DNA from: Bradyrhizobium quebecense
GTDB lineage: Bacteria > Pseudomonadota > Alphaproteobacteria > Rhizobiales > Xanthobacteraceae
Direction: 5' to 3'
Assembly (NCBI RefSeq): GCF_013373795.3
Contig: NZ_CP088022.1
Location: 7,750,001 to 7,814,000 of the forward strand
DNA length: 64,000 nt
Shown here: piece after piece, positions 18,602-62,868 of the stretch
How the letters are laid out: each line of letters begins with the position of its first letter
Position numbering within the stretch: position 1 is the stretch's first letter
Position numbers and translations under genes: made by a program
The notes under the pieces: model-generated
Seen by the model: the letters and a program-made list of their open reading frames with translations, nothing else
Databases searched by the model: none
Told to the model about the DNA's origin: nothing

Positions 18602-18645
18602 GTCGTCCCGGCCTAGTGCGCAATTGCGCACTAGGCCGGGACGAC
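18602..18645. repeat. 44-bp perfect palindrome (short form of repeat R1)
   Basis: Perfect dyad with outer arms GTCGTCCCGGCCTAG and CTAGGCCGGGACGAC around GTGCGCAATTGCGCAC without any spacer. It fills most of the 70-bp gap between the ligase gene and the hydrolase gene, so it will fold as a hairpin in their common transcript. The core GTGCGCAATTGCGCAC recurs in R1 at 43806-43821. Confidence 0.85.
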
Positions 18646-40518: not shown

Positions 40519-40544
40519 GTTGTCCCGGCTTTCGCCGGGACGAC
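40519..40544. repeat. short form of palindromic repeat R1
   Basis: GTTGTCCCGGC (40519-40529), TTTC, GCCGGGACGAC (40534-40544): an 11-bp stem with one G-T mismatch and a tetraloop, between the converging phoB and gcrA genes. Confidence 0.75.
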
Positions 40545-42848: not shown

Positions 42849-43774
42849 TGAGCAAGCCGGTCCGTCACTTCCTCGACATCAACGAGCTGCCGCTCGCCGA
42901 GCTGCGCAACATGCTCGAAGCCGGAGCCGCCATGAAGGCGAGGCTGAAGGCGCATGAGAAGGGCAGGAAGCCGCTCGAAGGCAAGACGCTGGCGATGATC
43001 TTCGAGCGCCCGTCGACCCGCACAAGGGTGTCGTTCGACGTCGGCATGCGCCAGCTCGGCGGTGAATCCATCATGCTGACCGGCGCCGAGATGCAGCTCG
43101 GCCGCGGCGAGACCATCGCCGACACCGCGCGCGTGCTGTCGCGTTATGTCGATGCGATCATGATCCGCATCCTCAACCATGACGCGCTGCTCGAGCTCGC
43201 CGCCCACGCCACCGTGCCCGTCATCAACGGCCTGACCCGGCGTTCGCATCCCTGCCAGGTGATGGCCGACCTCATGACCTATGAGGAAAACCGCGGCTCG
43301 ATCGAGGGCAAGACGGTGGCCTGGACCGGCGACGACAACAACGTGCTGGCCTCCTGGGCGCACGCTGCGGAGCGGTTCAAGTTCAATCTCAACATTGCCA
43401 CCCCGCCCGAGCTCTCGCCGAAGAAGCCGATGCGGGACTGGATCAAGGCCACCGGCGCGCCGATCATGCTCGGCACCGATCCGGAAGCCGCCGTGCGCGG
43501 CGCCGACTGCGTCGTCACCGACACCTGGGTGTCGATGGGCGACAAGGAGGGCGAGCACCGCCACAACGTGCTGAAGCCCTATCAGGTCAATGCCAAGCTG
43601 ATGTCGCTCGCCAAGCCGGACGCGCTGTTCATGCACTGCCTGCCCGCGCATCGCGGCGAGGAGGTCACCGACGAGGTGATCGACGGCCCGCAATCTGTGG
43701 TGTTCGACGAGGCGGAAAACCGCCTGCATGCGCAGAAGGGCATTCTGGCCTGGTGTTTCGACACGGTCGCGTAG
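42848..43774 (+). CDS. argF: ornithine carbamoyltransferase
   Basis: A 308-residue enzyme making citrulline from ornithine and carbamoyl phosphate. Carbamoyl-phosphate site [13 protein letters not shown] (S-x-R-T-R), [11 protein letters not shown], ornithine site [10 protein letters not shown] (family SMG loop) and [12 protein letters not shown] are intact. Co-transcribed with argD. In relatives hslO follows closely; here an IS1111-type element separates them. Confidence 0.95.
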
Positions 43775-43977
43775 TCGACGACATCAATGCCGTCGTCCCT
43801 GCCTTGTGCGCAATTGCGCACTGGAGCAGGGACCCATACGCCGCGGCCTGCGAAAAAGGCACATGGGCAGACGCCTTGTGCCGCGACAAAATCCTGTGGT
43901 TGATGGTGTGGACGGCCCCCTACGGCATCAGTGTGCCAGAATGAGGTTGTTGTAAATCTCAGACAAGGAGACCGTCC

Positions 43978-45006
43978 GTGAGAGAGATTATCCGTATTGG
44001 GATGGATACGTCGAAGCATATTTTTGTGCTGCATGGAGTTGACGCGGCGGAACAGCCGGTGTTGCGCAAGAAGCTGTCGCGCAAGCAGGTGCTTGAGTTT
44101 TTTGCCAAGCTTCCGCCGACCGTGATCGGGATGGAGGCCTGCGGGGCGGCTCATTACTGGGGGCGCGAGCTTGGCAAGCTTGGCCATGAGGTGAAGCTGA
44201 TAGCGCCGCAGTTGGTGAAGCCTTATGTGCTGCGGAACAAGAACGACGGGCGAGATGCGGATGGGGTGTGCGAAGCGATGGGCCGACCGCGGATGCGGTT
44301 TGTGCCGGTGAAGAGCGCCGAACAGCAGGCCGCGCTGATGCTTGCAGGTGTCCGCGATGGGCTGATCGGCCGCCGTACCCAGCTCAGCAATGCGATCCGC
44401 GGCTACGCGGCGGAGTTTGGCCTGATCGCGCCGAAGGGGTTGGACAAGATCGAGCCGCTGTTGGCCCGGATCACGCAGGACGAGAGCGTTCCCGCTATGG
44501 CGCGCGAGCTGTTCGCCATGCAGGGCCGTGACTATGCGCAGTTGCAGGGTGAGCTGAAGGCGGTCGAGGCCAGGCTGCTGGCCTGGCACCAGGCCAACGC
44601 CACAAGCCGTCGTCTGGCCCAGATCCCCTCGGTCGGTCCGATCATCGCGACCTCGCTTGTGATGAAGACGCCGGACCCGCACGCCTTCCGCTCCGGCCGC
44701 TTGTTCGCGGCCTGGCTCGGCCTGACGCCCAAGGACCATTCCACCGCCGGCAAAACCAGGCTCGGCAAGATCACCCGCGCTGGCGACGAGACCCTGCGTC
44801 GCCTGCTCGTGGCCGGGGCGACCGCGGTGATCCGGCAGGCAAGGCTCGGGCGCGGCCACCCCTCGCGCTGGCTCGTGGCGTTGCTCAGGCGCAAGCCGCC
44901 GAAGCTTGCGGCCGTGGCGCTCGCCAACAAGGTGGCCCGCATCGCCTGGAAGCTGATGGCGACCGGCGAGAGCTATGATGCCGCACGCATGAACGCTGTC
45001 ACCTAA
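43978..45006 (+). CDS. IS110/IS1111-family DEDD recombinase (transposase)
   Basis: A 342-residue protein. N-terminal RuvC-like DEDD domain: Asp10 (IGMDTSKH), Glu53 (GMEACGAAH), Asp90 and Asp93 (KNDGRDADG). C-terminal Transposase_20 domain with AQIPSVGPIIATSLV and the catalytic Ser255 in DHSTAGKTRLGKITRAGD. All five catalytic residues are present, so the copy may be active. GTG start at 43978 with AAGGAGACC upstream. Confidence 0.93.
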   Translation: MREIIRIGMDTSKHIFVLHGVDAAEQPVLRKKLSRKQVLEFFAKLPPTVIGMEACGAAHYWGRELGKLGHEVKLIAPQLVKPYVLRNKNDGRDADGVCEAMGRPRMRFVPVKSAEQQAALMLAGVRDGLIGRRTQLSNAIRGYAAEFGLIAPKGLDKIEPLLARITQDESVPAMARELFAMQGRDYAQLQGELKAVEARLLAWHQANATSRRLAQIPSVGPIIATSLVMKTPDPHAFRSGRLFAAWLGLTPKDHSTAGKTRLGKITRAGDETLRRLLVAGATAVIRQARLGRGHPSRWLVALLRRKPPKLAAVALANKVARIAWKLMATGESYDAARMNAVT

Positions 45007-45250
45007 CAGGTCGGCCGGCCGGACGTAGCGCTCGCCGGACGAACCGGAGCTGCAAGAGCAGATGGAATGATCGATCGATCCAGAACGCGAGACAAGCCGC
45101 GGGACCCATTGGCCTTCACAAGGTCGCCAGGTTGTTTGGCACTCGCGTCGCGGAAACCATCTTGGCCCAGCGATCAACACGATCGCATCAAACAGGCCGG
45201 ACATATGGATGACAGCGATCCGACCAATCCCAGAAAGCTCTTGTGCCACG
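45007..45250 (+). ncRNA. candidate bridge (seek) RNA of IS1111-type copy 1
   Basis: The 3' non-coding end of IS1111-group elements is where the guide RNA is encoded. Here GGGACCCAT (45101-45109) is the exact reverse complement of ATGGGTCCC, the right half of the occupied target, and ACCATC (45156-45161) is the reverse complement of GATGGT, the first six bases of the element. Target guide precedes donor guide, as in known bridge RNAs. Left-side guide segments could not be fixed with confidence, nor the exact RNA ends. A repeated GATCGATCGATC at about 45070 gives local dyad symmetry. Confidence 0.65.
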
Positions 45251-45351
45251 GGGGCCGTCCACATATGGGTCCCTGCTTTCGCAGGGACGACGTCGATTCC
45301 CGGTATGCTGAACCCCTTTATTTCATGGTCCGAGACCCCAGATAGAGCGCC

Positions 45352-58645: not shown

Positions 58646-58853
58646 GGGGGAGGCGGCGGCCCAAACCTCCACTGTCGTCCCGGGCAAGCGAAGCGCGACC
58701 CGGGACCCATAACCACAAATGCCGATTGCTTTGCGGTGCTGGGGCCACAGCGATCGCAACAACAAGCCGCGGTGGTTGATGGTGTGGACGGCCCCCTACG
58801 GCATCAGTGTGCCAGAATGAGGTTGTTGTAAATCTCAGACAAGGAGACCGTCC

Positions 58854-59882
58854 GTGAGAGAGATTATCCGTATTGGGATGGATACGTCGAAGCATATTTT
58901 TGTGCTGCATGGAGTTGACGCGGCGGAACAGCCGGTGTTGCGCAAGAAGCTGTCGCGCAAGCAGGTGCTTGAGTTTTTTGCCAAGCTTCCGCCGACCGTG
59001 ATCGGGATGGAGGCCTGCGGGGCGGCTCATTACTGGGGGCGCGAGCTTGGCAAGCTTGGCCATGAGGTGAAGCTGATAGCGCCGCAGTTGGTGAAGCCTT
59101 ATGTGCTGCGGAACAAGAACGACGGGCGAGATGCGGATGGGGTGTGCGAAGCGATGGGCCGACCGCGGATGCGGTTTGTGCCGGTGAAGAGCGCCGAACA
59201 GCAGGCCGCGCTGATGCTTGCAGGTGTCCGCGATGGGCTGATCGGCCGCCGTACCCAGCTCAGCAATGCGATCCGCGGCTACGCGGCGGAGTTTGGCCTG
59301 ATCGCGCCGAAGGGGTTGGACAAGATCGAGCCGCTGTTGGCCCGGATCACGCAGGACGAGAGCGTTCCCGCTATGGCGCGCGAGCTGTTCGCCATGCAGG
59401 GCCGTGACTATGCGCAGTTGCAGGGTGAGCTGAAGGCGGTCGAGGCCAGGCTGCTGGCCTGGCACCAGGCCAACGCCACAAGCCGTCGTCTGGCCCAGAT
59501 CCCCTCGGTCGGTCCGATCATCGCGACCTCGCTTGTGATGAAGACGCCGGACCCGCACGCCTTCCGCTCCGGCCGCTTGTTCGCGGCCTGGCTCGGCCTG
59601 ACGCCCAAGGACCATTCCACCGCCGGCAAAACCAGGCTCGGCAAGATCACCCGCGCTGGCGACGAGACCCTGCGTCGCCTGCTCGTGGCCGGGGCGACCG
59701 CGGTGATCCGGCAGGCAAGGCTCGGGCGCGGCCACCCCTCGCGCTGGCTCGTGGCGTTGCTCAGGCGCAAGCCGCCGAAGCTTGCGGCCGTGGCGCTCGC
59801 CAACAAGGTGGCCCGCATCGCCTGGAAGCTGATGGCGACCGGCGAGAGCTATGATGCCGCACGCATGAACGCTGTCACCTAA
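58854..59882 (+). CDS. IS110/IS1111-family DEDD recombinase (transposase), copy 2
   Basis: 342 residues, identical to the copy-1 protein at 43978-45006 with all DEDD and Ser residues present. GTG start behind AAGGAGACC. Confidence 0.93.
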   Translation: MREIIRIGMDTSKHIFVLHGVDAAEQPVLRKKLSRKQVLEFFAKLPPTVIGMEACGAAHYWGRELGKLGHEVKLIAPQLVKPYVLRNKNDGRDADGVCEAMGRPRMRFVPVKSAEQQAALMLAGVRDGLIGRRTQLSNAIRGYAAEFGLIAPKGLDKIEPLLARITQDESVPAMARELFAMQGRDYAQLQGELKAVEARLLAWHQANATSRRLAQIPSVGPIIATSLVMKTPDPHAFRSGRLFAAWLGLTPKDHSTAGKTRLGKITRAGDETLRRLLVAGATAVIRQARLGRGHPSRWLVALLRRKPPKLAAVALANKVARIAWKLMATGESYDAARMNAVT

Positions 59883-60126
59883 CAGGTCGGCCGGCCGGAC
59901 GTAGCGCTCGCCGGACGAACCGGAGCTGCAAGAGCAGATGGAATGATCGATCGATCCAGAACGCGAGACAAGCCGCGGGACCCATTGGCCTTCACAAGGT
60001 CGCCAGGTTGTTTGGCACTCGCGTCGCGGAAACCATCTTGGCCCAGCGATCAACACGATCGCATCAAACAGGCCGGACATATGGATGACAGCGATCCGAC
60101 CAATCCCAGAAAGCTCTTGTGCCACG
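59883..60126 (+). ncRNA. candidate bridge (seek) RNA of IS1111-type copy 2
   Basis: Same sequence as the copy-1 region. Target guide GGGACCCAT at 59977-59985 and donor guide ACCATC at 60032-60037. Because the flanking repeat here has the same ATGGGTCCC, the guide-target match holds independently at this second locus. Confidence 0.65.
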
Positions 60127-60193
60127 AGGGCCGTCCACATATGGGTCCCGGCCTTCGCCGGGACGACAGCGAGTGTGTGGTGCGCACCTCTGG

Positions 60194-62746: not shown

Positions 62747-62868
62747 GTCGTCCCGGCGAAGGCCGGGACCCATAACCACCGAACGCAATTGTTGAACGAC
62801 CCTGGAATGACGAGTCGCTCTCACAACATCCGCTGCGGCGTATGGGTCCCGGCCTTCGCCGGGACAAC
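62747..62868. repeat. palindromic repeat R1, copy 4, uninterrupted
   Basis: GTCGTCCCGGCGAAGGCCGG then GACCCATAACCACC on the left; GTATGGGTCCCGGCC then TTCGCCGGGACAAC on the right, with a 60-bp unrelated centre. It is the only full-length R1 in the window without an IS, and here the right inner arm reads GGCGTATGGGTCCC, lacking GTGGTT. Confidence 0.82.

Follow-up and report, generated by a model that had tools for sequence, protein, structure and literature searches.

A REP-targeting IS1111 element of Bradyrhizobium quebecense with a predicted bispecific guide RNA, and evidence for retargeting with an unchanged transposase

IS1111 elements with a seekRNA include ISEc11, ISPa11, ISKpn4 and ISPst6 (PMC11187229). 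RNA guidance in this group, the targeting of repetitive extragenic palindromes (REPs) by ISPa11 and retargeting between less similar elements have all been known since 2024, and the published natural redirections, ISEc11/ISXne4 and ISEc21/ISMch6, involve transposases that are 72% identical (PMC11187229). Bridge RNA predictions in IS1111 have also been published; Durrant et al. report such a prediction for 93.0% of IS1111 elements (PMC11208160). Here we analysed a window of 64,000 nucleotides from Bradyrhizobium quebecense (contig NZ_CP088022.1, positions 7,750,001 to 7,814,000), which carries two copies of an IS1111-type element (Table 1). We estimate at roughly 0.93 the probability that this element belongs to the IS1111 family and that the non-coding region behind its gene specifies a bispecific guide RNA for the DEDD recombinase. 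This reading is supported, at the level of sequence comparison, by the anatomy, the target, the RNA structure, the covariation of guides with flanks and retargeting with an unchanged protein. What is new here is this retargeting, the combination of a fixed right guide with left guides that track REP spacer variants and, more tentatively, the agreement with the other partner DNA of the RNA bases behind the two bottom-strand guides. Literature searches on IS1111 in Bradyrhizobium and on IS110 with REP, Bradyrhizobium and target gave no paper on this system, judged by title.

Like the IS1111 seekRNA elements (PMC11187229), the element combines a DEDD transposase in the range of 330 to 350 amino acids with subterminal inverted repeats that have 7-bp and 3-bp extensions, has a downstream non-coding region (258 nt, versus 76 nt upstream of the gene) in which, read 5' to 3', the top-strand match comes before the bottom-strand one, and inserts in one orientation without duplication. 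Like ISPa11, it uses REPs as its target (PMC11187229). Unlike the published IS1111 seekRNA elements, it targets CGTC-type REP dimers, has donor-end guides with covariation support and has sister copies that differ by a 2-nt guide change while their transposase is identical. The transposase has the domains PF01548 (DEDD, N-terminal) and PF02371 (C-terminal), both above cut-off, and is related in sequence to the solved transposases of ISCro4 (E 2.4e-10) and IS621 (E 2.1e-8). Its motif GLTPKDHSTAG, judged by eye without alignment, is the rarer TA form of the IS1111 signature GL-P----S(T)G, which occasionally reads TA (PMC11187229); in relatives of IS621 the catalytic serine lies in this motif. 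An upstream non-coding region, a bottom-strand match that comes first and a lack of long subterminal repeats, which are the traits of the IS110 group in the narrow sense, are not what is found. On the sequence-testable features that were checked, 43902-45264 reads as an IS1111 element.

The element resembles IS621 in its predicted bispecific RNA, each loop of which would guide to the left bottom and the right top strand (PMC11208160), in covariation with the target and, for the left donor guide, with the donor, and, suggestively, in handshake-like bases that agree with the DNA of the other partner (PMC11208160, PMC11208158). It differs from IS621 in that the predicted RNA lies in the right end, the guide order is reversed in both loops and the long guide is on the right. 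A right-end RNA with predicted target and donor pairing agrees with the IS1111 predictions of Durrant et al. (PMC11208160); in those a multi-loop often contains the donor nucleotides, whereas the consensus here has a simple internal loop closed by helices 5 and 6. By analogy with ISEc11 and IS621, the region 45062-45222 would be transcribed as a seekRNA or bridge RNA that would bind the DEDD recombinase and direct strand exchange. The guides together would place the element at GGTT/ATGGGTCCC in the arms of a CGTC-type REP dimer, in one orientation and without duplication.

The predicted RNA was assigned four guides, three of which are backed by covariation with flanks or ends and one, ACCATC, weakly. 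The preliminary description of this DNA had pointed out GGGACCCAT as the exact complement of the right flank ATGGGTCCC and, 46 nt further, ACCATC as the complement of the left end GATGGT. Both observations hold. It had also argued that a chance 9-mer match was unlikely. Taken alone this is a post hoc argument: as part of a repeat, ATGGGTCCC is found 10 times in the window, where shuffles give an expectation of 0.35; the comparative tests do decide in favour of a guide. The left-side guides, which had been left unassigned, were both found, and both covary.

For these tests, relatives came from a search of genome contigs (80 of 111 loci kept), from 265 genomes of the same genus (30 loci requested and two candidates scored per genome), from one further genome and from chosen stretches. 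After 59 duplicate loci of the own genome had been left out there were 149 records, 97 of which had both ends and 84 of which were unique in element and flank. L077 and L104 were excluded because their flanks were too short, and 64 distinct guide/flank combinations were left; the mis-oriented L113, L120, L121 and L122 counted as misses among these 64 pairs and were omitted from the structure work. Guides were compared with flanks at fixed alignment positions and with 20,000 flank permutations, a procedure that does not remove kinship. The left guide matched flank positions -5 to -2 at 201 of 256 comparisons (permuted mean 77, maximum 113), and the right guide matched positions +4 to +9 at 316 of 384 (permuted mean 166, maximum 209). 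Both target guides thus beat all permutations, which bears out the proposal that the 9-mer is the right target guide. In the REP-targeting relatives the agreement was 71/92 over 23 distinct pairs of left guide and flank (permuted mean 42, maximum 60), with left guides such as GGTT, GGAGT, GGCGT, GGCT, GAACT, GCGGT and GGAGTT varying with the flank. In this group the right guide keeps to the REP stem and the left guide changes with the flank. The signal is also seen where the right flank is a different one: with a single pair taken for each such flank, 33 pairs gave 102/132 on the left (permuted mean 36, maximum 62) and 133/198 on the right (permuted mean 57, maximum 85). Mismatches at -2 were U.G or G.T wobbles in 10 of 15 cases, mis-oriented rows excluded, and L062 (right flank ATGGGCCCC), L126 and L201 (ATGGGTCCT) retain GGGACCCAT, each with a single mismatch or wobble. 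The data supply a collection of natural guide/target pairs in which wobbles are tolerated.

The clearest case for an RNA that sets the left half-site is, as far as the sequences go, a trio of sister copies in the same genome. L146 and L147 are the same in sequence, and of 1,374 bp L030 differs from them at only four, namely positions 643, 1240, 1241 and 1266. Translation gives one and the same transposase of 343 residues for L030 and L146. The left guide includes positions 1240 and 1241 and reads GTGGTT in L030 and GGAGTT in L146 and L147. The left flanks are GTGGTT in L030, GGAGTT in L146 and GGAGCT (a U.G wobble at -2) in L147; on the right, each of the three has ATGGGTCCC. As the protein is constant and a 2-nt change of the left guide goes with a matching change of the flank, the left half-site follows the RNA. 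These copies offer a clean natural test, at constant protein, of an IS1111 RNA as the determinant of the insertion site, and elements of this type may shift their target by two-letter steps inside a repeat family.

It has been considered that the recombinase protein itself reads the REP arm, the guide-like 9-mer being a captured piece of the repeat or a chance match. The 9-mer and its neighbour do resemble the flanking repeat, sharing 12 of 14 nt, and REP-targeting relatives show little variation in the right guide. However, unrelated right flanks go with unrelated right guides at the same position, so that homologues with other targets and the same 9-mer, the case that would have spoken against a guide, are absent apart from the imperfect cases L062, L126 and L201. 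Left guides track left flanks, and L030, L146 and L147 have different left half-sites that follow the RNA while their transposases are identical. Recognition by the protein is largely refuted by these data, and we regard it as very improbable.

The structure of the predicted guide RNA was derived from 49 of 61 distinct RNAs, with the window sequence replacing the identical L148 and 12 odd or distant ones omitted. The RNAalifold consensus has three parts: an outer stem; a target stem-loop, in which a hairpin separates the two target guides; and a donor stem-loop of like plan. Alignment cells were paired in 96.8% of cases (at most 36.6% when the partners were slid) and 16 of 32 pairs changed on both sides; none of 500 shuffles reached any of five measures, with the structure drawn from the same alignment. 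A covariance model scored both window copies at 154.9 bits and the next match at 10.5, the window sequence being part of its training set. An RNA had been proposed for the whole of 45007-45264; the prediction of an IS1111-type guide RNA with a conserved two-stem-loop structure is supported, but its modelled extent is shorter.

The donor loop contains the two remaining guides. The left donor guide has the forms ACAT, ACAC, ACAG, ATAC, ATAG and AGAC, which change along with the right end. It equals the last four bases of the element in 77 of 80 loci by first match and in the remaining three by last match; 11 of these 80 guides are not ACAT, and the four mis-oriented loci yielded none. With an anchor independent of the right end the agreement was 78/84. 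It was 83/84 when the anchor was chosen by the known right end, which for that reason is not an independent test. ACCATC fits a right donor guide weakly on sequence grounds: it complements the left end, as had been proposed, but its covariation is weak. It is nearly invariant and does not follow left-end variation, which makes its support weaker, with the exception of L144/L145, where TCTCAT goes with AATGAGA. This near invariance would suit an RNA that guides to the target only, in which a short target-loop RNA works and the donor loop is structural, and a short 82-nt ISEc11 seekRNA alone did support transposition (PMC11187229). The changes at the ACAT position with the right end (ACAC, ACAG, ATAC, ATAG, AGAC), together with compensatory pairs in helix 7 of the donor stem-loop, argue against this, and we consider guidance of the target alone to be unlikely.

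Several observations weigh against a bispecific guide RNA. The left guide of the window matches its flank at 4 nt only, and the guide bases at -5 and -6 mismatch. Poor fits are found in L099 (right 3/8), L162, L167, L116 and the four mis-oriented rows. The right donor guide keeps CCATC constant while left ends vary between GATGG and GTTGG. The single-sequence fold is a plausible two-stem-loop that is not exceptional (z -1.54), so the structure rests on the alignment, and an Rfam scan of the element region gave no match up to E 1. Finally, the permutations leave relatedness among the elements in place. Shared descent alone does not explain the many unrelated targets.

The target itself is well defined. 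As the preliminary description stated, both insertions in the window have GTGGTT on the left and ATGGGTCCC on the right, and the check that it proposed, whether all copies insert at ATGGGTCCC, came out positive: GGTT/ATGGGTCCC flanks all 28 full copies in the genome, in one orientation, and ATGGGTCCC flanks both full copies of a 98% element in another genome. An alignment of the flanks of the 28 full copies and the sister L030 (n=29) has GGTT at -4 to -1 in 29/29, T at -5 in 28/29 and G at -6 in 27/29 on the left; on the right it has ATGGGTCCC at +1 to +9 in 29/29, G (24) or T (5) at +10 and G at +11 in 29/29, and the repeat varies further out. There is no target duplication, as unoccupied GTGGTTATGGGTCCC is present in the same genome. 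Judged by eye, two units CGTC-GTCCCGGC-GAAG-GCCGGGAC lie in opposite orientation in the repeat, some tens of bases apart. With its CGTC tag, stem of 8 to 9 bp, loop of 4 to 5 nt and head-to-head dimers, it fits the CGTC-tagged REPs known from Bradyrhizobium, which by their published description have an 8-bp stem and a 4-nt loop in head-to-head dimers (PMC3733652). Compared with that description, REPs appear here as the landing site of a putatively RNA-guided element. GGTT precedes ATGGGTCCC at 29 of 29 occupied sites but at 51 of 123 other ATGGGTCCC sites among the matches listed (Fisher p 4e-10), a tally that excludes element right junctions and internal guides and in which GCGT (22), GGTA (8) and GAGT (6) follow. 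Within the element itself the 9-mer follows GGCCA instead of GGTT, so that this copy is no target by the GGTT rule.

Shared flanks could also come from duplication of larger segments or from homologous recombination between copies, rather than from a choice of site. The copies are indeed nearly identical, but their flanks differ beyond the bases of the target and the repeat, and in other genera the relatives use different targets; we consider this explanation to have a negligible probability. At the site of L146, all seven orthologous stretches without the element have an intact REP dimer with a different spacer. This indicates that the repeat exists without the element; an exact empty site is not thereby demonstrated. 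Unoccupied REP dimers are also found in the window at 1403-1488, with two GGTT arms, and at 62765-62850, with one GGTT arm and one CGGCGT arm. More opposed CGTC-type REP units, without a ATGGGTCCC arm, lie at 18602-18645 and 40519-40544.

In IS621 the handshake bases follow the top-strand guides (PMC11208158), and the top strands are exchanged first. Here, unlike in that account, handshake-like bases follow the bottom-strand guides: immediately 3' of each bottom-strand guide the RNA tends to agree with the DNA of the other partner and not with the cognate one, which on sequence comparison is suggestive. With the anchor chosen by the known right end, RNA after the left donor guide matched the right flank at +1 to +5 in 106 of 140 comparisons over 28 distinct flanks (permuted mean 91.4, reached in 0 of 20,000); L121 (AAGAC), L129 (ATGAC), L117 (ATGAA) and L144 (ATAG) fit, and L113, L118, L120 and L122 do not. 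The first anchoring, in which the left donor guide was misplaced in many rows, gave no signal at +1 to +3 (99/135 versus 97.3 permuted), and the second, independent of the right end and with 78/84 placed, gave 96/140 at +1 to +5 (mean 81.0, 5/20,000). Because three successive anchorings were used the result carries less weight, and because the earlier ones were null or weaker and relatedness was not removed we call the match suggestive. RNA after the left target guide matched the left end of the element at 117 of 141 comparisons versus 38 of 141 for the cognate right target. Position 2 gave 30/47 (permuted mean 20.2, 3/20,000) and position 3 was uninformative. GAT in the RNA occurred 11 times with the end GAT and never with GTT; GTT in the RNA went with the end GAT in 14 cases. 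Possibly, IS1111 recombination is a strand-mirrored form of that of IS621, with retargeting that moves by small steps in the short left guide and leaves the long right guide on the conserved REP stem, but this reading is tentative. If true, the mirrored order predicts that bottom strands exchange first, and it would account for the reversed guide order of IS1111 and for the target-derived flanks needed in excision. In a literature search on strand order, the IS621 structure paper was the only bridge-recombinase paper among the matches listed.

Table 1. Positions of the element, its target and its predicted guides in the window
Feature	Position	Strand	Remark
Complete IS1111-type element, copy 1	43902..45264	+	1,363 bp; empty sites present in same genome
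Left target half-site GTGGTT	43896..43901	+	GGTT is the guide-paired part
Left extension GATGGTG	43902..43908	+	element start; 7 bp, right-donor DNA
Left subterminal inverted repeat TGGACGGCCCCC	43909..43920	+	
DEDD transposase/recombinase gene	43978..45006	+	342 aa, GTG start
Modelled guide RNA (seekRNA/bridge RNA)	45062..45222	+	target loop and donor loop; modelled ends
Right target guide GGGACCCAT	45101..45109	+	exact complement of ATGGGTCCC
Left target guide GGTT	45130..45133	+	covaries with left flank
GTT after left target guide, possible handshake bases	45134..45136	+	tend to match element left end
Right donor guide ACCATC	45156..45161	+	complement of left end GATGGT; nearly invariant, weak covariation
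Left donor guide ACAT	45201..45204	+	same sense as element's last four bases
ATG after left donor guide, possible handshake bases	45205..45207	+	match start of right target
TTG, candidate -35 of circle-junction promoter	45241..45243	+	fixed distance from right end
Right subterminal inverted repeat GGGGGCCGTCCA	45250..45261	+	followed by 3-bp extension CAT, 45262-45264
Right target half-site ATGGGTCCC	45265..45273	+	extends into REP stem
Element copy 2	58778..60140	+	left GTGGTT 58772-58777; right ATGGGTCCC 60141-60149
Copy 2 guides	59977-59985, 60006-60009, 60032-60037, 60077-60080	+	arrangement as in copy 1

All 49 distinct right ends contain TTG, which lies 24 nt from the end in 44 of them and 23 nt from it in 5. 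Its position makes it a candidate -35 of a junction promoter, for which the -10 part is not convincing. A first automatic search for subterminal repeats caught REP palindromes at many loci and was replaced by anchoring on a TGGACGG core. The host genome of 9.17 Mb contains 28 full copies, 13 identical to the window copy and the rest with one or two differences, as well as one internally deleted copy and the three copies of the 83% identical sister. The deleted copy (L029/L148, C1:6236823-6238119) is 1,297 bp long and has lost neither of its ends nor the RNA region; the target half-sites beside it are likewise kept, GTGGTT to the left and ATGGGTCCC to the right. Of the 28 full copies, 9 share a G-to-A change at element position 1350 (60127 in copy 2), inside the right subterminal repeat, which means that an imperfect repeat still moved or was copied. 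A change at element position 1108, just past the stop codon, marks five copies. On the minus strand, an antisense open frame of 560 codons (43582-45264) runs through the whole element into the upstream gene and is probably a by-product of the high G+C content. The closest named relatives of the element are from Bradyrhizobium. The same genome also has distant IS1111-like transposases, about 45 to 48% identical, on C1, C2 and C3 (L141-L145), and in L142, L144 and L145 the ends can be recognised, as can guides directed at other targets.
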